The position numbers and the translations under genes were made by a program. Below are positions 2,367-35,039 of a DNA stretch of 36,249 bases, one piece after another. Below the pieces are notes generated by a model. It was not told the origin of the DNA. It did no database searches and saw only the letters and a program-made list of their open reading frames with translations. Position 1 is the first letter of the stretch; every line of letters starts with the position of its first letter. This DNA comes from Gammaproteobacteria bacterium (GTDB taxonomy: Bacteria > Pseudomonadota > Gammaproteobacteria > Steroidobacterales > PWYM01): NCBI GenBank assembly GCA_003567475.1, contig PWZL01000083.1:1-36249 (forward strand), read 5' to 3'.

Positions 2367-3365
2367 TCACGATGCCTCTACCAGCTCGATCCGTTCTCCG
2401 GCCGGGCCAATCACCGTTGCCACGCGACTCTCGCCATAGGCGCGCCCGCCCGGGCGATGGGGTGGGGTGATCAACAGGGCGGGATCGATGGCATCAAGAT
2501 CGCGCACCGTAAAGGATGACATCGCCACGCCAGGTGGCAGGTCACCGTCGGCGACCGGCCGCGGGCCAGCACTCACCGGGTAGCCGTCGATCTCGATGGA
2601 GTTGCTGAACTCGGCCAGGCGAACAAGCGCCAGCGGAAAGGCATGGTCTTCGGGCAGCCCCTGGGCTCGGGCGATGATGGCCACCGGCGTTTCCATGAAA
2701 AACGCCTCTCGCGCTCCGAAGGTCTCCACGTAGAAATCCGTCAGTGCGCGCGCATCCGGACCGGCCACCACCATGATGAACGGACGATCGATCTCCACCC
2801 GAGGCGTGAGCAGCGTCGAGGCTGCCCGGTCGCCGGTCTCGGTGGTGAAATAGAAAAGCTCCTGTGAGGGGCCGGTGAACTGCACCGCGCGAATACTCGA
2901 GGTACCACCGCCGAGATAGTCCGGCCCGCCGACATGCGCGAACGGGGAGTCGAGCAGCTGCCGATAGACTTCGTCCGGGTCCTCGACGATGATCTCGATC
3001 GCGTTCCAGCCCCAGGTGGTCATCGCCCGATAGTCTTCGGGCACCGCCACCTCAATCACGCGCAGAAACACCTCGTCCCCGCTCTCGCCCTGCAGAAGCG
3101 CGTAGGGCCGACCGGCGACCGCCGGTGCGCCCCAGCTTGCGGCGAGCACCTCCGACACCTCGCCACGCTCGACGATGTCGTAACGGAGATGCCGTCGGTA
3201 GAGGGCGGCCGTGGCCTCGACATCGCGGGCGCCGACAGTGGCGATCCTGATCTTCTGCATGTTCGGTGTCGCGTCCTCTGCGTGGCTGGCGTGGCTCCCC
3301 GTGAGCCCCAGGGTGACGACAAGGGACACACCGAGCATGAGTGCCCGCAAGACACGAAAGCCCAT
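2367..3365 (-). CDS. exported protein with two VOC (glyoxalase/dioxygenase) domains
   Basis: A 332-residue protein with an N-terminal Sec signal peptide (about 1-29, hydrophobic ALMLGVSLVVTLGL, with a likely cut after SHAEDA or SHASHA). Two vicinal-oxygen-chelate modules follow, about 36-175 and 195-330. Each begins with a beta strand and an ALYRRHLRYD- or ALTDFYVETFG-like helix, and ends in a strand such as ERIELVEA. VOC proteins bind a metal in paired beta-alpha-beta-beta-beta units (glyoxalase I, extradiol dioxygenases, resistance proteins), so a periplasmic small-molecule role is inferred. The metal ligands are not obvious, so it may be catalytically unusual. GAGGGAGAA precedes the ATG by four bases, and a TATACT -10 element sits about 30 bases upstream of the start codon. 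It is the first gene of the VOC-RidA-cupin run; the transporter upstream may be co-transcribed or separate. Confidence 0.75.
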   Translation of the reverse strand: MGFRVLRALMLGVSLVVTLGLTGSHASHAEDATPNMQKIRIATVGARDVEATAALYRRHLRYDIVERGEVSEVLAASWGAPAVAGRPYALLQGESGDEVFLRVIEVAVPEDYRAMTTWGWNAIEIIVEDPDEVYRQLLDSPFAHVGGPDYLGGGTSSIRAVQFTGPSQELFYFTTETGDRAASTLLTPRVEIDRPFIMVVAGPDARALTDFYVETFGAREAFFMETPVAIIARAQGLPEDHAFPLALVRLAEFSNSIEIDGYPVSAGPRPVADGDLPPGVAMSSFTVRDLDAIDPALLITPPHRPGGRAYGESRVATVIGPAGERIELVEAS

Positions 3366-22535: not shown

Positions 22536-23111
22536 ATGCTCTGCCCTCTCGTGTGCCTGCTGATGCTTGCCTCGGGGCCTGCCGCCACGGACGCGCTGCT
22601 GCTCGATGACTTCACCGACGCGCAGCAGCGCTCGGCACTCGGCACCCGCTGGCAGGGCTTCACCGATGGCGTGATGGGCGGGCGCTCGGAGATCGAGGCC
22701 GGCTATGCCGACAGCGAGACCGGTCGCCACCTGTACATGCGCGGCCCGGTTCGCCTGGAGAACAATGGTGGCTTCATCCAAGTGCGCCTGCCGCTGACCC
22801 CCGACCGGGGCCTGTTCGATGCCTCGGCCTGGGACGGCATCGCGCTTGTCGTGCGCGGGCGTCCGGGGCCGTACTACCTGCATCTGCGCACCGCCGGCAC
22901 GCCCAGGGTGTGGCAGTACTTCAGTGCGCCCGTGGCGGTCACCGCGGACTGGCAGCGCGTGGTGGTGCCCTTCTCCGCCTTCCGCGGCCAGTATCTGACG
23001 GCACCGCTGGACCGCGACCGCCTGCGTTCGATCGGCGTCGTGGCTTACGGCAAGGCGTTCGAGGCAGACCTGGAGCTCGCGCGGATCGAACTGGTCCGCA
23101 TCGACCCGTAG
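22536..23111 (+). CDS. CIA30-domain exported protein
   Basis: A 191-residue protein with a hydrophobic N-terminus (about 1-20, MLCPLVCLLMLASGPAA) likely acting as a signal peptide, then a CIA30 domain. The family hallmark is the QGFTDGVMGGRSE block (about 39-51), followed by the galactose-binding-like beta sandwich. VWQYFSAPVAV and WQRVVVPFSAF are typical later strands. CIA30 was named from a mitochondrial complex I assembly factor, and in bacteria its role is unclear. The start at 22536 is four bases after the IorB-like stop, suggesting the same transcript. No clear ribosome binding site is seen, so it may rely on termination-reinitiation. A link to maturation of the molybdenum enzyme is possible but only inferred from position. 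Confidence 0.82.
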   Translation: MLCPLVCLLMLASGPAATDALLLDDFTDAQQRSALGTRWQGFTDGVMGGRSEIEAGYADSETGRHLYMRGPVRLENNGGFIQVRLPLTPDRGLFDASAWDGIALVVRGRPGPYYLHLRTAGTPRVWQYFSAPVAVTADWQRVVVPFSAFRGQYLTAPLDRDRLRSIGVVAYGKAFEADLELARIELVRIDP

Positions 23112-23172
23112 GCCTGACCCTGTCCTGCAGGATCCGTGCAATCGGCGGCCCGCCCAAGAGGTCTTCTTCCCT

Positions 23173-24078
23173 GTGAGCATGCCCACGACAACACCGCGGC
23201 AGAGGAGGCGGCCCACCATCAGCCTGCTTGCCGCTGTCCTGATGAGCACAATTGTCGCGGGCGGGCCGACGCAGGCCGACACCCGGGACGAGGCTGCGTG
23301 GATGCGGGCCATCTTTGCGCCCTTCGAGACGCTGCTCGAGGCGCACCTGATCGAGCAACCCTTGCAGGACGGCGGCCTGGTGTCCGCGTTCGATTACGCC
23401 GGGGCACTCGCTGACCCGACCCTTCCGGCACGGCTCGAGCGTCAACGCCAGCGACTGGCCGCATTCGATCGGACTGCGCTCGACACTCGCGAACGCGCAG
23501 TCGCCTTCTGGATCAACGCCTACAACTACTTCATGGTCGACCACATCCTCTCGACACCCGCGCGCGACGGCCTGGTGGAGAGCGTGAGGGACTACGGCAC
23601 GCTGTTCAATCCGTATCGGGTGTTTCGCCGGGCACAGTTCGAGGTCGGCGGACAACGTTTCAGTCTCGACGACATCGAAAAGGGGATTCTGCTGGGCGCG
23701 GAGTTTCGCGAGCGCGGCTGGAAGGATGCGAGGGTCCACTTCGCGGTGAATTGTGCATCGGTCGGCTGCCCACCGTTGCGCCGGGGGCTCTACCTGCCGG
23801 GCCAGCTCGACACGATGCTGGCGGAAACCACCCGGCACGCGCTGAACACACCACGACATCTGCGCATCGAGGGCGACACGCTGTACCTCTCGCGAGTGTT
23901 CGACTGGTACACGCAAGATTACGTCGAGGCGGCGGGCTCGGTGGAGGCCTTCATCGCCCGCCATGCCGACGACACGGTCGGCGCCGCGCTCGCGCAGGTT
24001 CAACGGTCGCGCCGCATCCCTTATGACTGGCGGCTCAATCGTCCCGAGAATTTTCCGGAGCTGGCTGAACGCCCCTAG
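23173..24078 (+). CDS. exported DUF547 protein
   Basis: A 301-residue protein with a signal peptide (about 1-36: Arg-rich start then [20 protein letters not shown]). A DUF547 domain follows, with the family hallmark [16 protein letters not shown] (about 115-130) and [16 protein letters not shown] (about 191-206). A Cys pair and His are well placed for a catalytic or metal role, though no activity is established for the family. The GTG at 23173 has AAGAGG about 11 bases upstream; the ATG at 23179 is an alternative two codons later. It follows the CIA30 gene by 61 bases and is the last gene of the plus-strand run starting with iorA. A link to the molybdenum enzyme is inferred only from adjacency. 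Confidence 0.85.
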
Positions 24079-24176
24079 GGCCTGTGAGTGACGCGACTGC
24101 GCAGCGGTGCTTCGGTCTCCGGAATGACCTCAACCTGAGCGCGCAACCTGCGGCCCCGTTGATTATCGATGGAGAA

Positions 24177-24536
24177 TCAGTCTCTCCCTTCGGTAGCGGT
24201 TCCGGGTTCGTCGGCCTCCCCGGCGACTTCACTCCGCCGGCGAGGTTTGTCCGGGCCGTGGTGCTGACCGCGACGGTTCGCCTGAGCCATGCGGTTGGCG
24301 AACGTGCTGGCCTTGCCGCTGGCCTTTTCCTGCTCGAGCGCATTGACGAACTCGATGGTCGAGAGGGACCGAACCCGCCGGTGATGGTGTATCACAGCCT
24401 GGACGGCGATCGCGATCGCCAGGTACGTGCGGATCGTGTTCCGGGACAGGCCGGTTCGTCGCTCGACCTCTCGAATCGGCAGGCCGTCACGGTGGTGCCA
24501 GCGCCGAATGACACTCAATAAGTCCACGTCTATCAC
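24177..24536 (-). pseudogene. IS21-family transposase relic, IstA-IstB in-frame deletion fusion
   Basis: The reading frame starts like IstA of IS21 elements: GTG at 24536, then [12 protein letters not shown] and the helix-turn-helix [18 protein letters not shown]. It then jumps straight to the IstB ATPase after its Walker A motif: [18 protein letters not shown] and [14 protein letters not shown]. The rest (from about codon 95) matches neither protein recognisably. Most of istA, including its DDE catalytic domain, and the IstB Walker A are missing, so the element cannot transpose. The junction falls at a shared Thr-x-Leu codon run, as expected from deletion between short repeats. One IS end is recognisable next to it (24583-24642); the other end is not. 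It lies between the DUF547 gene and the toxin-antitoxin pair. Confidence 0.75.
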
Positions 24537-24582
24537 TCCTGAATAACTCCCGCCGTCCTGCGGCGGGGGAAGCGTTACCCAT

Positions 24583-24642
24583 GGGTCAAATTTGGATGCA
24601 AACACCTGAGTCTAGTGGGTCACTATTGGCTGCAAATCAACA
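24583..24642 (-). repeat. IS21-type terminal end with two direct repeats
   Basis: Two copies of a related 22-23 base unit, GGGTCAAATTTGGATGCAAA (from 24583) and GGGTCACTATTGGCTGCAAA (from 24617), lie outside the relic IstA start. Multiple repeated end sequences like this are typical of IS21-family ends. On the minus strand the end would begin TGTTGATTTGCAGCC at 24642. No matching opposite end was found, although GTTGATT at 24158-24164 is a weak resemblance. Confidence 0.6.
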
Positions 24643-24684
24643 CAGTGAGATCAGCGTGCAGCAGGACTGCCTGAAGCGAGCAGC

Positions 24685-24708
24685 CTTGACTTGTCAAGAA
24701 TCGTCAAG
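24685..24708. promoter_or_regulatory. operator-like repeats upstream of the toxin-antitoxin genes
   Basis: CTTGAC-TT-GTCAAG (24685-24698) is a perfect inverted repeat, and GTCAAG occurs again at 24703-24708. The cluster ends 13 bases before the antitoxin start codon. TTGACT at 24686 also resembles a -35 box. Autoregulation of toxin-antitoxin operons by the RHH antitoxin is family knowledge; binding here is inferred. Confidence 0.5.
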
Positions 24709-24721
24709 TTACTCCGCCCGC

Positions 24722-24934
24722 ATGAGTGCTATCAAGATCAGTTCCAAGGTGGATCAGCAGGTCTGGAACGAACTGCGGGCGATGGCCCATGAAAGTCACC
24801 AGAGTGTCTCCGGACTGCTGACCGAGGCGATCAGCGAATACCTGGCGCGCCGACGCGTGCGCCCGACGGTCATGGCGCACTTCGAGGACTCTATCGAGCA
24901 GAACCGGCGCCTCGGTGACTTGCTTGCCCGCTAG
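24722..24934 (+). CDS. ribbon-helix-helix antitoxin (CopG/RHH family)
   Basis: A 70-residue protein with an N-terminal ribbon-helix-helix fold: the strand AIKISSKVDQQV, then helix WNELRAMAHE and helix SVSGLLTEAISEYLARRR. The C-terminal tail (HFEDSIEQNRRLGDLLAR) is the charged segment that would cover the toxin. It binds DNA as a dimer and neutralises the Doc toxin encoded just downstream; its gene overlaps that toxin gene by 20 bases. The ATG at 24722 starts the RHH motif. Inverted and direct GTCAAG repeats just upstream are a likely autoregulatory operator. The pairing of an RHH antitoxin with a Doc toxin differs from the classical Phd-Doc pair but is known. Confidence 0.85.
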   Translation: MSAIKISSKVDQQVWNELRAMAHESHQSVSGLLTEAISEYLARRRVRPTVMAHFEDSIEQNRRLGDLLAR

Positions 24935-25307
24935 GGTCGCCTATCTTTCTGCCGACGAAGTGCTGGCCATACATGTCGAGCTGATCACCACCTTCGGCGG
25001 GGCAGGCGGCTTGCGCGATGGCGGGCTCCTGGAAAGCGTGCTGCATCGGCCACGGACCGGCTACTACGCCGACGTCGCGGAAATGGCCGCAGCCATGTTC
25101 GAGTCACTGCTGATGAATCATCCTTTCGTGGATGGCAACAAGCGTGTCGCCTTCTTCGCCACTGATGTGTTCCTGCGGCTCAACGGCTGGCGCCTGGTGG
25201 TCGACGCGGACGAAGCGCATGAGTTCCTCATTGGCTTGCTGGAAATCCAGCACTGCGAATTTGCTCGCCTGTTGCCGTGGATTCGTGATCACATCCATAG
25301 GCTCTGA
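24915..25307 (+). CDS. doc: Doc-family toxin (Fic fold kinase)
   Basis: A 130-residue Doc (death-on-curing) toxin of the Fic fold. By family knowledge Doc phosphorylates EF-Tu and stops translation. The catalytic Fic motif reads HPFVDGNKRVAFFATDVFL (69-87): His is the base, and the following Asp/Gly/Asn-Lys-Arg form the ATP-binding turn, with Gly in place of the frequent Ala of Doc. The N-terminal region is YLSADEVLAIHVELI (about 10-24), which matches the usual Doc start. The GTG at 24915 was chosen, so it overlaps the antitoxin gene by 20 bases; a TTG at 24924 is possible. Functional status cannot be judged, but all core residues are present. Confidence 0.9.
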   Translation: MTCLPARVAYLSADEVLAIHVELITTFGGAGGLRDGGLLESVLHRPRTGYYADVAEMAAAMFESLLMNHPFVDGNKRVAFFATDVFLRLNGWRLVVDADEAHEFLIGLLEIQHCEFARLLPWIRDHIHRL

Positions 25308-25380
25308 TGCCTGGCATAACCTGCAGGAACACGTCGGCGAGCAGCCGGCGCCTGCCAGCGAAAAGGTGCTTTATTCGGCT

Positions 25381-25386
25381 TATACT
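25381..25386 (+). promoter_or_regulatory. candidate -10 element placing transcription start at the ATG
   Basis: TATACT lies seven bases before the start codon of the small membrane protein, so transcription would start at or next to the ATG and give a leaderless mRNA. No -35 is seen at the usual distance. Motif-based inference only. Confidence 0.3.
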
Positions 25387-25392
25387 CACGTC

Positions 25393-25845: not shown

Positions 25846-27273
25846 ATGCTAAGCTCGGGGGGCATGAATACGTCCTCTCAGCCTGGTCGGCCGGATCGCC
25901 TGAGGGAACTGCACCCGCGATCTCTGAAGCGACTGAGCGCCACGCTGGCGGTGCTGGTGCGGACCCGTCTGTGGGCGCAGATCATCGTCGGTATGCTGCT
26001 CGGCATCACTGTGGGCGCCGTACTCTCGCCGCGTGCGGGCTTCGTGGCGGACCAGGCGACAGCCGACATCATCGGCAACTGGCTGGCGCTGCCGGGGCTT
26101 CTGTTCCTGCAGCTCATCTCGATGATCGTGTTGCCGCTGGTGTTCTGTTCGATCGTGCTCGGTCTTGCCTCCAGCGACAGCGCCCGTGAGCTGCGCCAGG
26201 TCGGCGGCCGGGCGCTTCCGTTCTTCCTCGTCACCACCCTGTTTGCCTGTATGGTCGGCTTGGGCGCGGCACTGCTGCTCGAACCCGGCAACTACCTTCC
26301 CGAGGAGCTGCGCCTGGAAGCGCGCGCCGCGGAGGCAGGCACCGGGGCGAGCTCGCCGCAGCTGCCAACCGACGACACCCATCCGGTCGCCCGACCGGCC
26401 TTGGGCGACGTACCCCGGACGCTTGTGGATCTGCTTCCCGCCTCACCGCTGGAAGCCGCGGCCAACCGCGCCATGCTGCAATGGGTGATCTTCTCGCTGG
26501 TGATCGCCGTGGCCATCGTGCGTATGGCACCTCAGATCGCTCGACCGCTCATTGATCTCCTGGGCGCCATTCAGGAAATCTGCATGATCGTCATCAAGTG
26601 GGCGATGTTCATCGCGCCCGCGGCGGTATTCGGCCTGCTCGCCCAGATCACCATTCGAATCGGGCTGGAGGCCCTGCTGGGCATGTCGGCGTATGTGGGT
26701 ACGGTGCTGGTCGCGCTGGCGATCCTGCTGTTCACCTATACCCTGCTGGCCTGGAGCCTCGCCGGACTGCGCCCGCTGCGCTTCCTCGCGGCAAGTCGTG
26801 AGGTGCTGCTGCTGGCGTTTGCCACCAGTTCGAGTGCGGCGGTCATGCCACTGTCCATCAAGGTCGCTGAAGAGAAGCTTGGCGTCCGCAAGGCAATCGC
26901 TCGCTTCGTCGTCCCTCTGGGAGCCACGGTGAATATGGCGGGGACCGCCGCGTATCAGTGTGTCGCCACCATTTTCCTGGTGCAGGTGTTTGGTATCGAT
27001 CTCAGCACCGGACAACTGGCGCTGATCGTGCTGACCACCGTCGGCGCCTCCATTGGCGCGCCGGCGAGCCCCGGTGTCGGCATCGTCATTCTCGCGATGA
27101 TCCTCGCCACCGTGGGGGTGCCGGCGTCAGGTATCGCCCTGATCCTCGGGGTCGACCGCATCCTCGACATGTGCCGAACGGCAGTCAATGTGACCGGCGA
27201 TCTCGTCGCCTGCGCCTGGATCGAGCGCAGTTTGCCGGCGCAGGATCTGGAAGCCACCGTACATCCGGGCTGA
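25846..27273 (+). CDS. dicarboxylate/amino acid:cation symporter (DAACS, GltP/GltT-like)
   Basis: A 475-residue inner-membrane symporter of the SLC1/DAACS family. The serine-rich hairpin ATSSSAAVMP (326-335), the TM7 motif (NMAGT, 363-367) and the TM8 motif DRILDMCRTAVNVTGD are all visible. Asp441, Arg444 and Thr445 match the GltPh residues that bind the substrate amino and side-chain carboxylate groups, so an acidic amino acid or dicarboxylate is likely. The usual NMDGT is NMAGT here: Ala365 replaces the Asp that binds a sodium ion in GltPh. AGAGG lies five bases before the ATG at 25846; an ATG at 25864 is an alternative. An 11-base-pair stem (27278-27311) follows the stop. It converges on the TonB receptor gene. 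Confidence 0.93.
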   Translation: MLSSGGMNTSSQPGRPDRLRELHPRSLKRLSATLAVLVRTRLWAQIIVGMLLGITVGAVLSPRAGFVADQATADIIGNWLALPGLLFLQLISMIVLPLVFCSIVLGLASSDSARELRQVGGRALPFFLVTTLFACMVGLGAALLLEPGNYLPEELRLEARAAEAGTGASSPQLPTDDTHPVARPALGDVPRTLVDLLPASPLEAAANRAMLQWVIFSLVIAVAIVRMAPQIARPLIDLLGAIQEICMIVIKWAMFIAPAAVFGLLAQITIRIGLEALLGMSAYVGTVLVALAILLFTYTLLAWSLAGLRPLRFLAASREVLLLAFATSSSAAVMPLSIKVAEEKLGVRKAIARFVVPLGATVNMAGTAAYQCVATIFLVQVFGIDLSTGQLALIVLTTVGASIGAPASPGVGIVILAMILATVGVPASGIALILGVDRILDMCRTAVNVTGDLVACAWIERSLPAQDLEATVHPG

Positions 27274-27277
27274 TGCG

Positions 27278-27311
27278 CGTTGCGGCGATCCCCTGAGGGC
27301 TCGCCGCAACG
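27278..27311. terminator. hairpin between convergent symporter and TonB receptor genes
   Basis: CGTTGCGGCGA and TCGCCGCAACG form an 11-base-pair stem around a 12-base loop, between two converging stop codons. There is no T run on either strand, so intrinsic termination is uncertain. The position fits a shared transcript end or an mRNA-protecting stem. Confidence 0.5.
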
Positions 27312-27326
27312 ACACATCATGACTGA

Positions 27327-29930
27327 TCAAAAACGTACGCCAACCTCGACGCCATAGCGCCTCAGCCCACCGGGTGAAACAAAGGCCCCTCCGGCCTCAG
27401 CCGCCGGAATGACCTCCTGCAGATAATTCTTGTCGAACAGATTATCTGCAAACGCAGTGACCCGCCATGTTTCGGATTCAACCCCTACGCGAAGGTTCAC
27501 CACACCGAATGCGTCCCTGCGGGTGCGGGAGTAATCCGCGAGCAGTGGCGCCGTTGGTGGACCAAACCGCGTAATCACATCTGTATTTCGTTCCTGCAGC
27601 GTGCTGAACCATGTCGGGCCCGTAAGCCTGTAGTCCAGACGCGCCGTCCAGTCCAAATCACCGCGCAACGGTAGAATGATTTGCGTACCGAGATTGAGGG
27701 TGTAGTCCGGTGTGTAGGGAGAGGTATTGCCTTCGGTGTTTGGCCGGGCAAAATTGCGTTTTATTTCGCTTTCAGTGATGTTCGCCGAACCGAAGACACT
27801 CCAGCCCTCGGTAATCGCGAAGTCCAGTGAGGCCTCCGCGCCATAAATTTCGACCTTCGAAATATTCGAGACGACACGCAGAAGACCGAAAGGACCAGTG
27901 AAGAATTCGAAGATCTGCATGTCCTTTACATCTGTGTAGTAGCCTGCAAGCTCATACGACAAACGTCCATCGAAACCTCGACCCTTCAGACCCAGTTCAA
28001 ACGCACTGGTCCGTTCCTTTTCGTACTGATCCGGCAAATTGAGATTCGAACCTCTTTCAAGATTGAAAAAATTCCGGATCACTGCCTCCGTACCACTGCT
28101 GTTGAACCCGCCGGATTTGAACCCTATCCCCCAACTGGCATAGATGGAGAGATCCTCGATAGGCTGATACACGATGCTCAGCTTTGGCTGAATTTGACTG
28201 AACGTTGCAGATACTGGCACCAGCCCCTCAGGATTGAGCACCGGGTTCAATCCCGGGTTCAGGAAATTATTGGCCGGCGTAGTCTCAGTGCCGTTCGGTA
28301 TATCAACGATACCGGGGATCTGGGCCCCCACCCATCGCGAACGCGCGTCAACCGGAACTTGTGGGCGTACGTCACGCTCTTCACGATCGTAGCGCAGCGC
28401 GAGGGACGCCACCCATGCCTCAGCCAGATCGAATTCCAATGAACCGAAGAGCGAATAGACGTCCGTCGTGAACTTGTCATCTGCGAGTTGTTCTGTCGGA
28501 TTTCTCAAGTCAGTGGTAAAACACTCCGGAATGATGCCCTGGCCAGTGTCCAACCCGAGATTCACACAGGTTCGACGGTCAATCCGAAGATAATAAACAC
28601 CACCTTGCCATCGGAGCGCGGCATCACCAGGCCCGATCAAACGCGCCTCGAAGCTCCAATCCTCCTGCGTACGACGCTGATACTGGACACCATCACAGGT
28701 CGTGGGCGTATACGGTACCAGCAGGGAATTCTGGCCACCTGGAGGCACCGGAGGGCCAGGAACAGTACCGAGAAAACCAGGCGACTGAACGGGAAACCCG
28801 GTTAATGCAGACACTGTTGCTCGACATGTCGGTTCATTCCAAAAGAAGCCGAAGCCGCCGGCGTTGCCGTCCGCAAAAAACTCGTTGTCTATACGGTTAT
28901 AAGCGACGAAGCTACGAAACGTAGCGAAATCCATCTCATGATTCAGTAACGCCGACAGTTCCACCGTATCCTGCTCGTTTCTCGGCGCGACGTTGGCATG
29001 GTGGACAAAACGGTGATCATTCACATCCAGAAATGCAGCAGGACCGATCAGGGCCTGAAACGGTGGGAGCGAAAACACGATGTTGAAGTTGATCGCTGCA
29101 CTCTCATTGCGACCGTAGCGCGCCTTCAAATCCAGATCTGTATCTGGCCCAAGCGGTAGGACAAGCCGCCCGTAAGCATTCCACCGCTCATAGTTATCGA
29201 CACTTGCCGACGAGCCTCTAGGCACATCTGCGCCCGCACCATGCACTGATCTGACAGCATCGGCATAGACGTCGAATTCAGGAGAGTTCATGAAACTGTT
29301 GCGATAAAAGCCGTCTGATTTCTCGAAATCGGCCGACAACACAAAGCCTGCACCATCGCCACCGATAGGGCCACTGATGCGAGCAAACGCATCGTAGGTG
29401 CTGTCATTGGCGACAGCCGCAGAGCCCGTAAACTCTAACTCGTCGCCCGGACCACGCGTTGTTACAACAATCGCACCCGCCGATGCGTTGCGACCATAAA
29501 GTGCGCCTTGAGGCCCCTTCAGCACTTCGATCTGTACCAACTCACCTTGATTCTGAAAGATCGAAGCGCGGTTCGTTTTCTGCACACCATCGACGACAAG
29601 CGCCACGTTATTCTCAGCATCACGGGTACCGTTGAGGCCACGAATACTGACCTGGACATCGCCCACTTCTGCCGTCGAAGCCACGAGGCTGACACCAGGG
29701 GTGAGCTGAATGAAGTCGCGGGCAGAGCGGATACCAGCCTGCTCAATGGTTTCGCTGGTAAAGACGGTGAGCGCTGCTGGAATATCTTCCAGCCGCTCCT
29801 GAATACCTCGCGCGGTAACTACGATTTCCTGCAAGCCACCCTCGTTGGCGGGCTGCCCGATCGCCGGAACTGCCAGCACGGTGAGCGCGCCACCGCATAG
29901 CACCTGCTGCACCGCTGCACGAATTGTCAT
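27327..29930 (-). CDS. TonB-dependent receptor, ligand unknown
   Basis: An 867-residue outer-membrane receptor. A signal peptide (about 1-25) precedes the TonB box EIVVTA (35-40). The plug domain (about 45-165) includes VVDGVQK and a GPQGALYGRNASAGAIVV segment. The beta barrel ends in FADNLFDKNYLQ and the final GVRF with C-terminal Phe. The plug pattern is that of the large group of receptors found in catabolic loci of oligotrophic proteobacteria; the ligand cannot be read. GGAGGGG lies six bases before the ATG at 29930; a TTG one codon upstream is less likely. A good sigma-70 promoter is at 30109-30137. The AT content of this gene is visibly higher than the surroundings, a sign of transfer. 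Confidence 0.93.
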   Translation of the reverse strand: MTIRAAVQQVLCGGALTVLAVPAIGQPANEGGLQEIVVTARGIQERLEDIPAALTVFTSETIEQAGIRSARDFIQLTPGVSLVASTAEVGDVQVSIRGLNGTRDAENNVALVVDGVQKTNRASIFQNQGELVQIEVLKGPQGALYGRNASAGAIVVTTRGPGDELEFTGSAAVANDSTYDAFARISGPIGGDGAGFVLSADFEKSDGFYRNSFMNSPEFDVYADAVRSVHGAGADVPRGSSASVDNYERWNAYGRLVLPLGPDTDLDLKARYGRNESAAINFNIVFSLPPFQALIGPAAFLDVNDHRFVHHANVAPRNEQDTVELSALLNHEMDFATFRSFVAYNRIDNEFFADGNAGGFGFFWNEPTCRATVSALTGFPVQSPGFLGTVPGPPVPPGGQNSLLVPYTPTTCDGVQYQRRTQEDWSFEARLIGPGDAALRWQGGVYYLRIDRRTCVNLGLDTGQGIIPECFTTDLRNPTEQLADDKFTTDVYSLFGSLEFDLAEAWVASLALRYDREERDVRPQVPVDARSRWVGAQIPGIVDIPNGTETTPANNFLNPGLNPVLNPEGLVPVSATFSQIQPKLSIVYQPIEDLSIYASWGIGFKSGGFNSSGTEAVIRNFFNLERGSNLNLPDQYEKERTSAFELGLKGRGFDGRLSYELAGYYTDVKDMQIFEFFTGPFGLLRVVSNISKVEIYGAEASLDFAITEGWSVFGSANITESEIKRNFARPNTEGNTSPYTPDYTLNLGTQIILPLRGDLDWTARLDYRLTGPTWFSTLQERNTDVITRFGPPTAPLLADYSRTRRDAFGVVNLRVGVESETWRVTAFADNLFDKNYLQEVIPAAEAGGAFVSPGGLRRYGVEVGVRF

Positions 29931-30108
29931 CAAAATCCCCTCCGCAATAAGCTCACCGCCCCATGATTCTGAGTGCCCGGCGTCACTGCCAGCCTGCCTT
30001 CAGCTTCTCTGCTGAGGAGAAATCCGTTTCTGTCGTAACTTGTCGGTCTTCCCCCGTGACGCGAAAAATCGCCAAATGACCATCGTCGAATTTGTGATAT
30101 TTTCAATT

Positions 30109-30137
30109 CTTATAGCGAGGCATGCTGGCTTCGTCAA
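30109..30137 (-). promoter_or_regulatory. sigma-70 promoter of the TonB receptor gene
   Basis: On the minus strand the sequence reads TTGACG, 17 bases, TATAAG: five of six matches at -35 and five of six at -10, with ideal spacing. Transcription would start near 30102 and leave a leader of about 170 bases before the receptor ATG. The promoter overlaps the alternative upstream start of the AllA-like gene, which supports using the later ATG for that gene. Confidence 0.7.
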
Positions 30138-30169
30138 CCGCAACATTCCTACTGGGGAGTGATAAAACC

Positions 30170-30757
30170 ATGGCCGCATCCGATACAGCTAGCCGTCCCA
30201 TCAGAACGTTCAAGATTCCTGTGCGTGAAGCGACTCCTGAGGCGTTGGCGCCCTATGGGACCGTGCTGGGCTCGCTGCCAGAGATACCGCCGCTACCGAT
30301 CAATTTCTATGATGGTACGGTCACGGTCAGAAAGCCCGCGGAGTTCATCACCGACTCCCCTGCGGAGTTCACAGTCTGCAGATTGCAGCCACGGCCAATG
30401 ACACTAGAGTTCCTGGAGCGCCATCCTCGCCATACACAGGCTTTCCTGCCGCTTGGGGGAAAGCCATTCATCGCGGTCTTTGCTCCCCCCACACCCGATA
30501 ACGAACTCCCCGAGATCGAAACGCTGGAAGCCTTTGAATTTGATGGAACTGCGGGCTTCATGATGCATATCAATACATGGCATGAGTTCCCGTTTGCTGT
30601 TCGCGAAGATACGGATATCGTGGTCGTTTTGAGTCGGGATACCAACCAGGCATTACATGACGACAACGTCATTGAAGGCGAGGCTCATGGCCCTGACCTG
30701 GATAAGCGAAACCTGGTCGCGAGGCTGGGATTAAGAGTCGAGCTGGAAACGGATTAG
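30170..30757 (+). CDS. ureidoglycolate lyase family protein (AllA-like)
   Basis: A 195-residue protein of the ureidoglycolate lyase (AllA) family, whose known members split ureidoglycolate to glyoxylate and urea at the end of allantoin (purine) breakdown. Shared features are an EALAPYGTVLG start, LERHPRHTQAFLPLGGKPFIAV (family pattern LERHPxGxQAFIPL) and the later WHEFPFA. The C-terminal tail of about 30 charged residues is longer than in E. coli AllA. Start 30170 is favoured: GGGGAG lies ten bases upstream, while the ATG at 30122 has a badly placed site and lies inside the divergent promoter. No other allantoin gene is nearby, so a related substrate is possible. Its stop overlaps the MFS stop antisense by four bases. 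Confidence 0.8.
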   Translation: MAASDTASRPIRTFKIPVREATPEALAPYGTVLGSLPEIPPLPINFYDGTVTVRKPAEFITDSPAEFTVCRLQPRPMTLEFLERHPRHTQAFLPLGGKPFIAVFAPPTPDNELPEIETLEAFEFDGTAGFMMHINTWHEFPFAVREDTDIVVVLSRDTNQALHDDNVIEGEAHGPDLDKRNLVARLGLRVELETD

Positions 30758-32067
30758 CTGACGCGAGATTCCGCTTCTGCAAGACGCAAGGCAGAGGCTT
30801 GAAAAGGTTTGAGCGTAAACCAGAATACGAACGCGGACAGGCTACTGAAAACCACTCCGACGAGCGCCAGCGAATACCCGACGGCGAGCGGGTCGCCAAA
30901 CACATAGTCGGTTATCAGGGCGGTGACGGTGGGCCCTGTTCCGATCCCGGCCAGGTTGATGCACAGAAGATAGACGGCTGCATACTGCGCTCGCATCGGT
31001 GCGGGGGTGATCATCTGCAAGGCTGCCGCGCCGATCCCGAACGGAAAGGCGCCGAAGAAGAAAAACAGATATAGACCGGCCACTGTCAATCCCGAACTCG
31101 GCGCCAGCGGTGCCAGCGCAGCCGCGAACACCAGCCCTACGCAAGCAATCAGCGTAGCGCGCAGATGCGCATCCTTATGACCTGCGCGCATGAATTTGTC
31201 GGACAGCCAACCGCCGGTGAGCATCCCCGCAGAACCGAACACCAGCAAGCCAATCCCGAGCACAGGCCCCGCCTGTCCGGGCGAGAAGCCATGCACCCGC
31301 ACCAGGAATGTAGGCGTCCAGGCAAGGAACGAGTTGAACACCAGAGAGGCCAGTGCGAAGCCCGCCAGATGACCGAACACGGCACGTTTTTGCAGCAGTG
31401 CAAAGCGAAAGATTTGCGCGAACGGTAGCGGCGCCGGAAGACCACCACGTCGAGCAGGCTCTGTGACTGTAAACATGAGCAGGATAACCGGCACTCCCAT
31501 CAAGCCGGCAATGAAAAACACGATTTGCCAGCTCCGGATCTCTCCTACCCACGGCAATGTGACCGCATCGAGCCCGGTGGTCAGCCCGACCACGATCCCA
31601 CCGATAATGAAAGCGAGACCCGCCCCGACCGTCACCCCTGAGTTGTAAAACGCGTGCGCTCTCCCGAGCTTCTCTTTCGGGAACCAGTCATAAATCATTG
31701 AATACGCTGCAGGCGACAGTGCCGCTTCGCCGACGCCTACCATCATTCGCGCGACCAGCAGATGCCAGAAGTGCTTGGCCAGGCCGCACGAGGCACTCGC
31801 GAGGTTCCATACAATCATGCCGATGATGATGATCGGCCGTCGGGCGGATCTGTCTGCCAAGCGGGCGATCGGAATGCCCATAAGGGTGTAGAAGATCGCG
31901 AACGCCGCACCATGTAGGAGGCTGATTTGGGTGTCGTTGATGCCGAGATCGCGTTGAATCGGGATGATGAGCAGCGACAGGATGATCCGATCAGTAAACG
32001 AGACCGTCCACGCGAGAAACAGAATGGTGACCCCGTACCAAGCTGTTCTTAGGTTGTCCTGCTCCAC
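30754..32067 (-). CDS. major facilitator superfamily transporter
   Basis: A 437-residue inner-membrane transporter with 12 predicted helices in two six-helix halves (about 10-210 and 225-425). The loop-2/3 signature is GIPIARLADRSARRPIIIIG (about 63-82), close to the MFS motif G-x3-D-R-x-G-R-R. Loop 8/9 carries GGWLSDKFMR. The substrate is unknown; the pattern resembles the spinster-like or anion-cation symporter groups often next to TonB receptors. A GTG at 32067 is the start, with GGGGG four bases upstream; an overlapping ATG at 32069 is out of frame. Its 3' end overlaps the AllA-like gene by four bases, tail to tail. With the TonB receptor it could form an outer- and inner-membrane uptake pair. 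Confidence 0.93.
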   Translation of the reverse strand: MEQDNLRTAWYGVTILFLAWTVSFTDRIILSLLIIPIQRDLGINDTQISLLHGAAFAIFYTLMGIPIARLADRSARRPIIIIGMIVWNLASASCGLAKHFWHLLVARMMVGVGEAALSPAAYSMIYDWFPKEKLGRAHAFYNSGVTVGAGLAFIIGGIVVGLTTGLDAVTLPWVGEIRSWQIVFFIAGLMGVPVILLMFTVTEPARRGGLPAPLPFAQIFRFALLQKRAVFGHLAGFALASLVFNSFLAWTPTFLVRVHGFSPGQAGPVLGIGLLVFGSAGMLTGGWLSDKFMRAGHKDAHLRATLIACVGLVFAAALAPLAPSSGLTVAGLYLFFFFGAFPFGIGAAALQMITPAPMRAQYAAVYLLCINLAGIGTGPTVTALITDYVFGDPLAVGYSLALVGVVFSSLSAFVFWFTLKPFQASALRLAEAESRVS

Positions 32068-32174
32068 ATCACCCCCAAAGAATACGCAACGGTGCAGAAC
32101 AAGCCACCGGAGTTTCGCTCCAAGTCATGACGCGCTGAAGATAGCACGGGCCGTCATCACCCGCGCCGCAGATT

Positions 32175-33038
32175 TCAGATCGCCGCCTTGCGCATCTCCT
32201 CGATGTAAATCTCACGCAGACGGGCAACGACGGGTCCCGGATGTCCGGTGCCTACGTGCACCCCGTCGATCTCGATGACAGGCGTCACGAACATGGAGGC
32301 CGAAGTGATGAAGGCCTCATCGGCGGCCTGCGCTTCAGCGATGCTGAAGCCCCGCTGCTCGACTTCAAGTGCCGCCTCGCGGGCGAGGCGGAGGACGGCG
32401 CTGCGGGTGATCCCGTGCAGGATGGCGCGGCTCAACTGGCGGGTGATGATCCGCCGATCCTTGACCAGGTAGGTGTTGCTCGATGCGCCCTCGGTGACCA
32501 GGCCATCCTCGACCAGCCAGGCGTCAGCGCAGCCTGCCTGCCGGGCAAGCGTCTTGGCCCAGCAGGCGTAGAGCAGCTGCACCGATTTGATATCCCGGCG
32601 ACCCCAACGCAGATCGTCGAGCGAGATCACCTTGATGCCGGCCCGCCCCGCAGGGCTTTCTGCCAACCCGGGTTTCGACTGGGTAAAGAGCACGACGGTG
32701 GGTGGACACTGGCTCGGATCAGGCCACAGGAAATCCCGGTCGCCCGAACTCCCACGGGTGATCTGCAGGTAAACCATGCCATCGGTGAGGCCATTGCGCG
32801 CCACCGCCTCACGATGGATTGCCAACCAGCGCTCGCGGTCGTACGGGTTGACCAATGACAGTGCTTCGCAGGAGCGCTGCAGGCGCGCCAGGTGCCCGTC
32901 GAAGTCCACCAGTCGCGCGTCGAGCACACTCGTGACCTCGTAGACCCCATCGCCCATGAGAAAGGCCCGGTCGAAGACCGAAACACGGGCATCGGCTTCC
33001 GGGACGAATTCGCCATTGAGGTAGACACTGCGATTCAT
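32175..33038 (-). CDS. dat: D-amino acid aminotransferase
   Basis: A 287-residue PLP class-IV transaminase that swaps amino groups between D-amino acids and 2-oxo acids (for example D-Ala + 2-oxoglutarate to pyruvate + D-Glu). It has the class-IV start YLNGEFVPEADARVSVFDRAFLMGDGVYE. Catalytic Lys151 is in RRDIKSVQLL and the PLP-binding Glu183 is in VTEGASSN. The DIKSVQLL context is typical of D-amino acid transaminases (canonical DIKS/DIKT); branched-chain IlvE or PabC cannot be fully excluded. The ATG at 33038 is eight bases after the dgcA stop, with an AGG/TAGG stretch upstream. It is the last gene of the D-amino-acid operon. It would feed D-glutamate to DgcN. Confidence 0.88.
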   Translation of the reverse strand: MNRSVYLNGEFVPEADARVSVFDRAFLMGDGVYEVTSVLDARLVDFDGHLARLQRSCEALSLVNPYDRERWLAIHREAVARNGLTDGMVYLQITRGSSGDRDFLWPDPSQCPPTVVLFTQSKPGLAESPAGRAGIKVISLDDLRWGRRDIKSVQLLYACWAKTLARQAGCADAWLVEDGLVTEGASSNTYLVKDRRIITRQLSRAILHGITRSAVLRLAREAALEVEQRGFSIAEAQAADEAFITSASMFVTPVIEIDGVHVGTGHPGPVVARLREIYIEEMRKAAI

Positions 33039-33046
33039 CCTGACAC

Positions 33047-34009
33047 CTATCCCCAGAGGTTGGCTGCGGGCGGATGTACCCCATCGGCATCGTAGCGCAG
33101 CGCCGGTGTGCGATCGCGTGCCAGCAGCAGCGGCCCGTCGAGATCCACCACTTCTGCGCCCTGGGCAAGCAGCACAGCCGGCGCCATCGCCAGCGAGGTA
33201 CCGACCATACACCCCACCATCAGCCGATAGCCGCGTGCCTGCGCCTCGGCCCGCAGGGCCACGGCCTCGGTGAATCCACCAGTCTTGTCCAGCTTGATAT
33301 TGAGCATGTCGTATTTTCCGCTGAGCGTTGGCAGACTCGTGCGGTCGTGGCAGCTCTCGTCGGCACATACCGGCAGTGGCCGCGGCATCCCGGCCAGCGC
33401 TGCATCCTCGCCGGCGGGCAGGGGCTGTTCCACCATGGCCACGCCAAGGCGCAGGAGATGCGGCGCCAGTTCGGCATACAGCTCGGGGCTCCAGCCTTCG
33501 TTCGCATCGACGATGATGGCGGCGGCGGGCGCGCCGGCACGCACGGCCTCCAGCCGCGCCATGTCATCGGGTGAGCCCAGCTTGATCTTGAGCAGCGGCC
33601 GCGCGGCATGACGGGCCGCCGCAGCACGCATCCGGTCAGGGGTATCCAGGGACAACGTGAATGCCGTCATCACCGGCCGCGGCTCGGGCAGACCGGCGAG
33701 CGCCCAGGCGGGCGTCCCCGCACGCTTGGCCTCCCAGTCCCACAGCGCGCAGTCGAGTGCATTGCGTGCGGCTCCGGCAGCCAGGACCTGCTGTAGCGCA
33801 GCGCGATCGATGTCTTCGGGCAGGCCTTCGAGCTGGGCCGTTACCGACTCGATGCTCTCGCCGTAGCGGGCGTACGGCACGCACTCACCACGCCCGACGA
33901 TCCCGTCCCGGGTGACCTCGACCATCACCACGCGGGCCTCGGTCTTGGCGCCCCGTGAGATCGTGAACGTCTCGGCAAGCGGAAACGTCTCGGCGCGGAT
34001 CTGGATCAT
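33047..34009 (-). CDS. dgcA: N-acetyl-D-glutamate racemase DgcA (enolase superfamily)
   Basis: A 320-residue enolase-superfamily epimerase/racemase of the dipeptide-epimerase-like (muconate cycloisomerase) subgroup. Catalytic Lys141 and Lys143 sit in the LLKIKLG motif. The Mg2+ ligands are Asp168 (IIVDANEG), Glu194 (VEQPL) and Asp217 (VCADES). The opposite catalytic base Lys239 is in NIKLDKTGG. The substrate loop motif GCMVGTSLA (266-274) also fits. Alone it could be called L-Ala-D/L-Glu epimerase. Next to a DUF1611 (DgcN) gene it matches the DgcN-DgcA D-glutamate pathway, where it turns N-acetyl-D-glutamate into N-acetyl-L-glutamate. Start 34009 was chosen because MIQIRAETFPL is the family start; 60 codons of open frame upstream are not similar. 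It lies 25 bases after dgcN. Confidence 0.85.
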   Translation of the reverse strand: MIQIRAETFPLAETFTISRGAKTEARVVMVEVTRDGIVGRGECVPYARYGESIESVTAQLEGLPEDIDRAALQQVLAAGAARNALDCALWDWEAKRAGTPAWALAGLPEPRPVMTAFTLSLDTPDRMRAAAARHAARPLLKIKLGSPDDMARLEAVRAGAPAAAIIVDANEGWSPELYAELAPHLLRLGVAMVEQPLPAGEDAALAGMPRPLPVCADESCHDRTSLPTLSGKYDMLNIKLDKTGGFTEAVALRAEAQARGYRLMVGCMVGTSLAMAPAVLLAQGAEVVDLDGPLLLARDRTPALRYDADGVHPPAANLWG

Positions 34010-34034
34010 GACGACGGACTGGGCGCGCGGGAAC

Positions 34035-35039
34035 TCACAGCGCGGCCAGCGCATCGACCAGCTTACCCGCACCGAAGCGGTAAGGATCGGTGGCCGGCAG
34101 GCCCATTCGATCTTCCACCGCGGCCAGATGGGTGCGCGCGCTGGACTCGTCCATCGCCTTGGTATTGACCGATACCCCGGCGACGACACAGGCCGGATTG
34201 GCGATTCTCGCCATCGCCAGCGCCATGTCCCGCAAGGCCTCCAGCGAGGGCAAGGAATAGCCCGGCAAGCCGCGCATATGAGTGCGGGTCGGCTCTTCGC
34301 TCAGGATCAGCGCGTCGGGCTGACCGCCATGGATCAGCGCCAGGGTGACCCCCGAGTAGCTGACATGGAACAGGCTGCCCTGGCCTTCGATGAGATCCCA
34401 GTGATCGGCATCATTGTCCGGGGTGAGCCACTCGATCGAGCCGGCCATGAAATCGGCGATGACCGCATCCAGCGGTACGCCATCACCGGTGATCAGGATA
34501 CCGGTCTGACCGGTGGCCCGGAAGGTCGCCGACATGCCCCGGGCGCGCATCTCACGCTCCATGCACAAGGCCGTATACATCTTGCCCACCGAGCAGTCGG
34601 TGCCGACGGCCAGCAGGCGTCTGCCCCGACGCTTGACGCCATCGGCAATCGGATAACGCACCGAGGGGACCCGCACATCGTGCAAGCGCCGGCCGGTCGC
34701 ACGGGCCACCGCTGCCAGGTCCTCCTCGTCACGCAGCAGCGTGTGCAGGCCAGAAGCCAGATCGAACCCTTCCTCCAGCGCCTGCACCAGCACTTTCTTC
34801 CAGTGCGTACCGATCACGCCACCGCGATTCGCCACGCCAATGACCAGCGTTCTGGCGCCGGCGGCGCGAGCTTGGGTCAGGCTCATGTCGGGCAGGCCCA
34901 TATCGGCCTGGCATCCGGGCAGCCGGAACTGCCCCACGGCATACTCCGGTCGCCAGTCCCGGATGCCCTGGGCGACTTTCGCCGCCAGGGCATCGGGCGC
35001 ATCGCCAAGAAACAGCAGATAAGGCGTCGGGATGCTCAT
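34035..35039 (-). CDS. dgcN: D-glutamate N-acetyltransferase DgcN (DUF1611)
   Basis: A 334-residue DUF1611-family protein with an N-terminal alpha/beta domain (about 1-130) and a P-loop-like C-terminal domain beginning LLAVGTDCSVGKMYTAL (142-158). The Gly/Lys turn may bind the phosphates of acetyl-CoA rather than ATP. Later motifs are FRATGQTGILITGDGVPLDA and EGQGSLFHVSYSGVTLALIHG, typical of the family. DgcN, described in marine proteobacteria and haloarchaea, N-acetylates D-glutamate as the first step of its catabolism and is encoded next to DgcA. That pairing is exact here. ATG 35039 lies three bases after the stop of the VTT-family gene, so the two are probably coupled. Confidence 0.85.
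   Translation of the reverse strand: MSIPTPYLLFLGDAPDALAAKVAQGIRDWRPEYAVGQFRLPGCQADMGLPDMSLTQARAAGARTLVIGVANRGGVIGTHWKKVLVQALEEGFDLASGLHTLLRDEEDLAAVARATGRRLHDVRVPSVRYPIADGVKRRGRRLLAVGTDCSVGKMYTALCMEREMRARGMSATFRATGQTGILITGDGVPLDAVIADFMAGSIEWLTPDNDADHWDLIEGQGSLFHVSYSGVTLALIHGGQPDALILSEEPTRTHMRGLPGYSLPSLEALRDMALAMARIANPACVVAGVSVNTKAMDESSARTHLAAVEDRMGLPATDPYRFGAGKLVDALAAL

Follow-up and report, generated by a model that had tools for sequence, protein, structure and literature searches.

In the window, by which we mean the whole 36,249-nucleotide stretch of DNA analysed here, three genes encoding a TonB-dependent outer-membrane receptor, a cupin resembling ureidoglycolate lyase (AllA) and an MFS transporter stand between a DAACS symporter gene and a D-amino-acid transaminase gene (Table 1). 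The three reading frames lie where a preliminary description of this DNA had placed them, and Pfam bears out their families. The four-base tail-to-tail overlap of the AllA-like and MFS genes (30754-30757) was likewise found as described, as was the absence of a regulator, exactly three genes being present at 27327-32067. The extent given earlier holds for this three-gene core, and the true inserted stretch is slightly wider (27274-32174). Because the receptor and AllA-like genes diverge and the MFS gene converges with the AllA-like gene, the block is not one operon. A regulatory motif shared by both upstream regions was considered and rejected, since the 188-bp divergent spacer and the 107 bp upstream of the MFS gene have no 8-mer in common and promoter and terminator scans gave results at chance level. 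The inverted repeat listed in Table 1 is missing from the corresponding junctions of the congeners G003 and G004. The top model for the MFS protein is 2A0114 (D-galactonate transporter), at a score below its cut-off.

Table 1. Features of the window that bear on the inserted block.
Feature	Position	Strand	Description
Whole window			Contig C18 of a 3.06-Mb draft genome, 102 contigs
Left flank, DAACS symporter (glutamate/C4-dicarboxylate type)	25846..27273	+	Resident; PF00375
Inserted block	27274..32174	.	~4.9 kb; flanking genes adjacent without block in congeners G003, G004
Terminator-like inverted repeat	27280..27312	.	Between symporter stop and receptor stop; read by eye, outside terminator-scan list
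TonB-dependent outer-membrane receptor	27327..29933	-	868 aa; PF00593 (barrel) and PF07715 (plug)
Receptor/AllA-like divergent spacer	29934..30121	.	188 bp
AllA-like cupin, H104/E155 clade	30122..30757	+	211 aa; PF04115 Ureidogly_lyase
MFS transporter	30754..32067	-	437 aa; Pfam MFS_1
Right flank, D-amino-acid transaminase	32175..33038	-	Resident; NF005209, 349.5 bits vs cut-off 320

The 16 kb around the block were searched as DNA in five genomes of the genus, its own included. Two of the four congeners, G003 and G004, hold the flanks without the block, and none of the four holds the block beyond short patchy similarity; G001 and G002 are uninformative on the insertion site because the DgcN flank is missing from them at E 1e-10. 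On contig C67 of G004, positions 1-2410 correspond to window 32175-34584 and positions 2443-3107 to window 26609-27273, with a 90% DNA match over the last 665 bp of the symporter gene and 32 bases between the symporter and transaminase stops. On contig C99 of G003, the two stops overlap as TGATCA; the same symporter end also occurs at the end of contig C30. We conclude with great confidence that a piece of ~4.9 kb was inserted cleanly between the convergent ends of the DAACS symporter and D-amino-acid transaminase genes, both of which are intact. The block has no mobile-element gene and its ends share no direct repeat of at least 8 bases, the sole repeat found being one 9-base inverted match; it thus lacks the mobility gene, target-site duplication and terminal repeats by which transposon or integron cargo would be recognized.

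Lower GC and foreign codon usage were found in all three genes. The receptor, AllA-like and MFS genes have GC contents of 0.552, 0.550 and 0.591 (0.580, 0.599 and 0.694 at third positions). The surrounding genes are richer in GC, at 0.656 on the left and at 0.644, 0.690 and 0.663 in the three that follow on the right. Fit to the codon usage of the host genome averaged 0.323 (sd 0.054, minimum 0.187) in 50 genes outside the block, and the values for the receptor (-0.097), the MFS gene (0.048) and the AllA-like gene (-0.153, computed apart because its coding score lay below the gene-set threshold) all fall under that minimum. The AllA-like gene is therefore as foreign as the receptor gene; the compositional contrast with both sides reported in the preliminary description stands. 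Codon usage like that of the neighbours and synteny conserved across the genus were both looked for, and neither occurred. The earlier proposal of transfer is borne out by the empty site in two congeners together with the foreign codon usage, and we regard lateral origin of the block, rather than two losses, as very likely. The comparison covers only four congeners, two of them without the DgcN flank at E 1e-10, which leaves some room for a block ancestral to the genus and later lost from G003 and G004; this history is nevertheless improbable, since it requires two losses that each gave a neat tail-to-tail junction, and since the block has foreign codon usage and occurs in none of the four. 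An assembly chimera, which a short stretch of odd composition in a metagenome-type draft of 102 contigs can resemble, is hardly credible, because both flanks continue a resident gene order that is found joined in two congeners and because foreign DNA would have had to land exactly between two stop codons and then return to the right base.

A second stretch nearby, window 23108-25391, carries a DUF547-like gene, a transposase-like fragment and an RHH/Doc toxin-antitoxin pair and is missing in G003, whose contig C30 runs from window 23107 to 25392 within ~57 bases; with the block, it makes two gains within 9 kb. At the edge of this stretch lies a 56-bp element (window 25332-25387) that has copies at ~84-93% on numerous contigs from the genus; it may serve the toxin-antitoxin cassettes as a site of recombination or insertion.

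AllA is described as a nickel-dependent, urea-releasing lyase (PMC3793230). The AllA-like protein of the block passes PF04115 (72.6 bits, gathering cut-off 23), and its predicted structure (mean pLDDT 87.8) retrieved AllA structures on top in a structure search (2bdr, E 1.9e-13; 1yqc, E 5.9e-13), the TM score of 0.85 to 1yqc by target length pointing to an AllA fold in the model. Residues E99, H101, Q106 and H154, which by the cupin motif would occupy metal-ligand positions, are conserved in 86-87 of 87 aligned rows. H104 and E155 are each conserved in 86 of the 87, the exception being the distant L026, and both are missing from all seven reference AllA-type rows (E. coli, Phyllobacterium, Rhizobium, Acidithiobacillus, Vibrio, Tistrella and Sinorhizobium); an extended C-terminus carries E187, again in 86/87 rows. 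The conservation of E155 among 80 loci of relatives was partly selected, because the search patterns include GTWHE[FV]PF, and H104 lies outside the patterns; among the 12 pattern-free rows (L015-L026), 11 keep both residues. Seven loci that are copies or were taken for near copies (L093, L094, L099, L115, L121, L158 and L159) were left out of the residue counts and of the tree, which also left out L023, as too short, and L026. The block enzyme thus resembles AllA/DAL3 (EC 4.3.2.3) in its PF04115 membership, its AllA fold as predicted and its four cupin-type positions, but it differs in the added H104 and E155, in the extended C-terminus with E187, in scores far below the model cut-offs and in a clade whose genomic setting is not purine catabolism. 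A literature survey, mostly of titles and abstract openings, found no paper on the H104/E155 clade or on the cassette.

The host genome has a second AllA-like gene, on contig C32, that is 45% identical to the block copy. In the tree, the C32 copy groups with the genes of G001 and G004, which directly adjoin a DAACS symporter gene, and the block copy pairs, on long branches and with support of 99/99, with L044 from a Sphingomonadales draft. This separation, the C32 copy with congeners and the block copy with Sphingomonadales, argues for lateral gain and against duplication; at 55% identity between the block copy and L044, no donor is named. At E 1e-45, the AllA-like protein is rare, occurring in 4 of 385 genomes in the class of the L044 genome and in 1 of 369 in the host's own class, that one being the host itself. 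The nearest relatives of the receptor are 46% identical (contig C6 of the same genome) and 43-44% identical (L046 and L048, Halieaceae), and the nearest MFS protein found in a search of ten genomes is 52% identical (G060); that search is unfit as an enrichment test, since the loci were chosen partly because an MFS gene had been seen in them.

Neighbours were counted, over all open reading frames, at 80 of 129 confirmed relatives (GTDB loci), with at least 16 kb of sequence at 50 of the 80. The AllA-like gene is accompanied by a SAM-methyltransferase-like protein at 31 loci, an MFS protein at 28, a TonB receptor at 24, a double alpha/beta hydrolase at 24 and a CoxL-type hydroxylase at 19. MFS and receptor genes both lie near it at seven, five of which are Azospirillaceae loci with the MFS gene just before the AllA-like gene and the receptor downstream; the host's own C32 locus likewise has an MFS gene (42%), the AllA-like gene and a receptor gene. 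The order in Halieaceae and Porticoccaceae is a receptor or MFS gene, hydroxylase genes and the AllA-like gene, with a berberine-type oxidase, a hydrolase and a UbiD decarboxylase in some. The kinds of genes that make up the trio recur together only inside such larger clusters: none of the 80 loci was recognized as having the trio alone, free of further catabolic genes of these kinds nearby. Synteny thus does not show that the three genes are functionally linked. The block shares with the CoxLMS-type hydroxylase clusters of Halieaceae, Porticoccaceae and Binatota an AllA-like gene that there lies next to or near hydroxylase genes and, in some, a receptor 43-44% or an MFS protein about 51% identical to its own. 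Unlike those clusters, it lacks genes for a hydroxylase, for UbiD, for a berberine-type oxidase and for an alpha/beta hydrolase, and its host genome lacks such a hydroxylase. In G001 and G004, an AllA-like gene of the same clade stands beside a DAACS gene, as in the window, but there the pair is co-directional and nearly overlapping, whereas in the window the two were brought together by the insertion and have the receptor gene between them.

Several further arrangements were seen at these loci. A ~118-aa protein without Pfam match and a ~395-aa methyltransferase-like protein occur together near AllA-like genes at 23 of the 80 (e.g., L100, 8668-10223). On an Acidithiobacillus caldus plasmid (L156, 1400-9562), molybdenum hydroxylase, AllA-like, ring-opening amidohydrolase, AtzE-type and HpxZ-type genes stand in a row that is apparently an N-heterocycle degradation set. 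G001 and G004 have DAACS, AllA-like and regulator-like genes side by side, and in the host genome (L015, G000:C32 69000-88900) the same genes are spread apart by numerous additional ones, namely GMC oxidoreductase, MFS, methyltransferase-like and TonB receptor genes, as if a catabolic cluster had grown around the AllA-like gene. To the right of the block, the D-amino-acid transaminase, DgcA and DgcN (window 32175-35039) pass their NCBIfam cut-offs and form a D-glutamate catabolic set beside the glutamate-type symporter. A link of the block to these genes was considered and rejected: none of the 80 AllA-like loci has DgcN, DgcA or the transaminase, so their nearness to the block looks accidental. 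A DAACS gene was present at two of the 80 (L115 and L121), both in congeners of the window and on the very contigs that carry L020 and L021.

These settings bear on a rival reading, in which the block scavenges purines or ureides and its AllA-like protein is a genuine ureidoglycolate lyase. PF04115 membership, the AllA fold and the conserved cupin-type positions are consistent with that reading, as are an NCS1-type permease (PF02133) adjoining the cluster of a relative in L052 and a 31% relative in Acidithiobacillus caldus that lies between molybdenum hydroxylase and ring-opening amidohydrolase genes. We nevertheless consider it unlikely. The protein scores 32.7-55.6 bits against the eight ureidoglycolate-lyase NCBIfam models that it matches, with cut-offs of 160-315, and passes none; H104 and E155 are missing from the seven reference proteins; its relatives lie in oxidative catabolic clusters; and the tree places it apart from the AllA proteins of E. 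coli and Phyllobacterium, whose branches are very long. No CoxL/xanthine-dehydrogenase-type protein was found in the host genome, where the best hit has E 3.5e-8 and each of three controls gave E 0. A search for allantoicase carries no weight either way, since it gave no match in the host or in any control genome. The scores below cut-off, the two residues, the oxidative settings and the missing xanthine-dehydrogenase-type protein together weaken the purine/allantoin reading and make a role in ureidoglycolate breakdown unlikely; ureidoglycolate is probably not the substrate. The preliminary description had proposed a transferred uptake-and-cleavage cassette for a nitrogen-rich or ureido compound, of which the transfer holds, uptake and cleavage remain as the best functional reading that we infer, and the ureido part finds no support. 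An iron or siderophore uptake module joined to an unrelated cupin is also improbable: the best receptor model is indeed TonB-siderophore, but at 168.5 bits it stays under its cut-off of 223.5, as the receptor does for every NCBIfam receptor model matched, and the nearest receptors outside the host genome, those of Halieaceae, immediately precede CoxLMS-AllA-like genes, a catabolic setting.

The block as a whole is best explained, by a modest balance of probability, as a transferred scavenging module of importers and a metal cupin lyase. That the three genes work together is somewhat better than an even bet, and lyase-type cleavage by the AllA-like protein, argued by analogy, is a tentative assignment of a little under even likelihood. 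The receptor would draw on TonB energy to move a solute that is scarce or large through the outer membrane, and the MFS protein, whose best match is an organic-anion type model, would carry the solute or a fragment of it across the inner membrane. The AllA-like metal-dependent cupin could then cleave the solute by an AllA-like retro-addition (C-N or C-O at an OH-bearing carbon), which would release a carbonyl acid to feed central metabolism. The reaction type is drawn from AllA and the substrate class from the neighbours of relatives; on that basis, the substrate is probably not ureidoglycolate but an oxidized organic acid formed when natural products or heterocycles are broken down. We further speculate, as a long shot, that the H104/E155 clade is a separate metal-cupin lyase family splitting unstable hydroxylated (hemiaminal or hemiketal) compounds that arise in natural-product catabolism through molybdenum hydroxylases or other oxidases, and that the block is a portable cross-feeding unit. 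If so, a host with the importers and the lyase but without the hydroxylase would live on half-oxidized intermediates from neighbours that carry the full cluster. The block offers a clean, datable case of a bacterium gaining an uptake-plus-enzyme set. It also draws attention to a recurrent protein branch that is apt to be labelled ureidoglycolate lyase by family models, yet whose settings are oxidative catabolic clusters. The substrate of this clade, once found, would name a step in several pathways.
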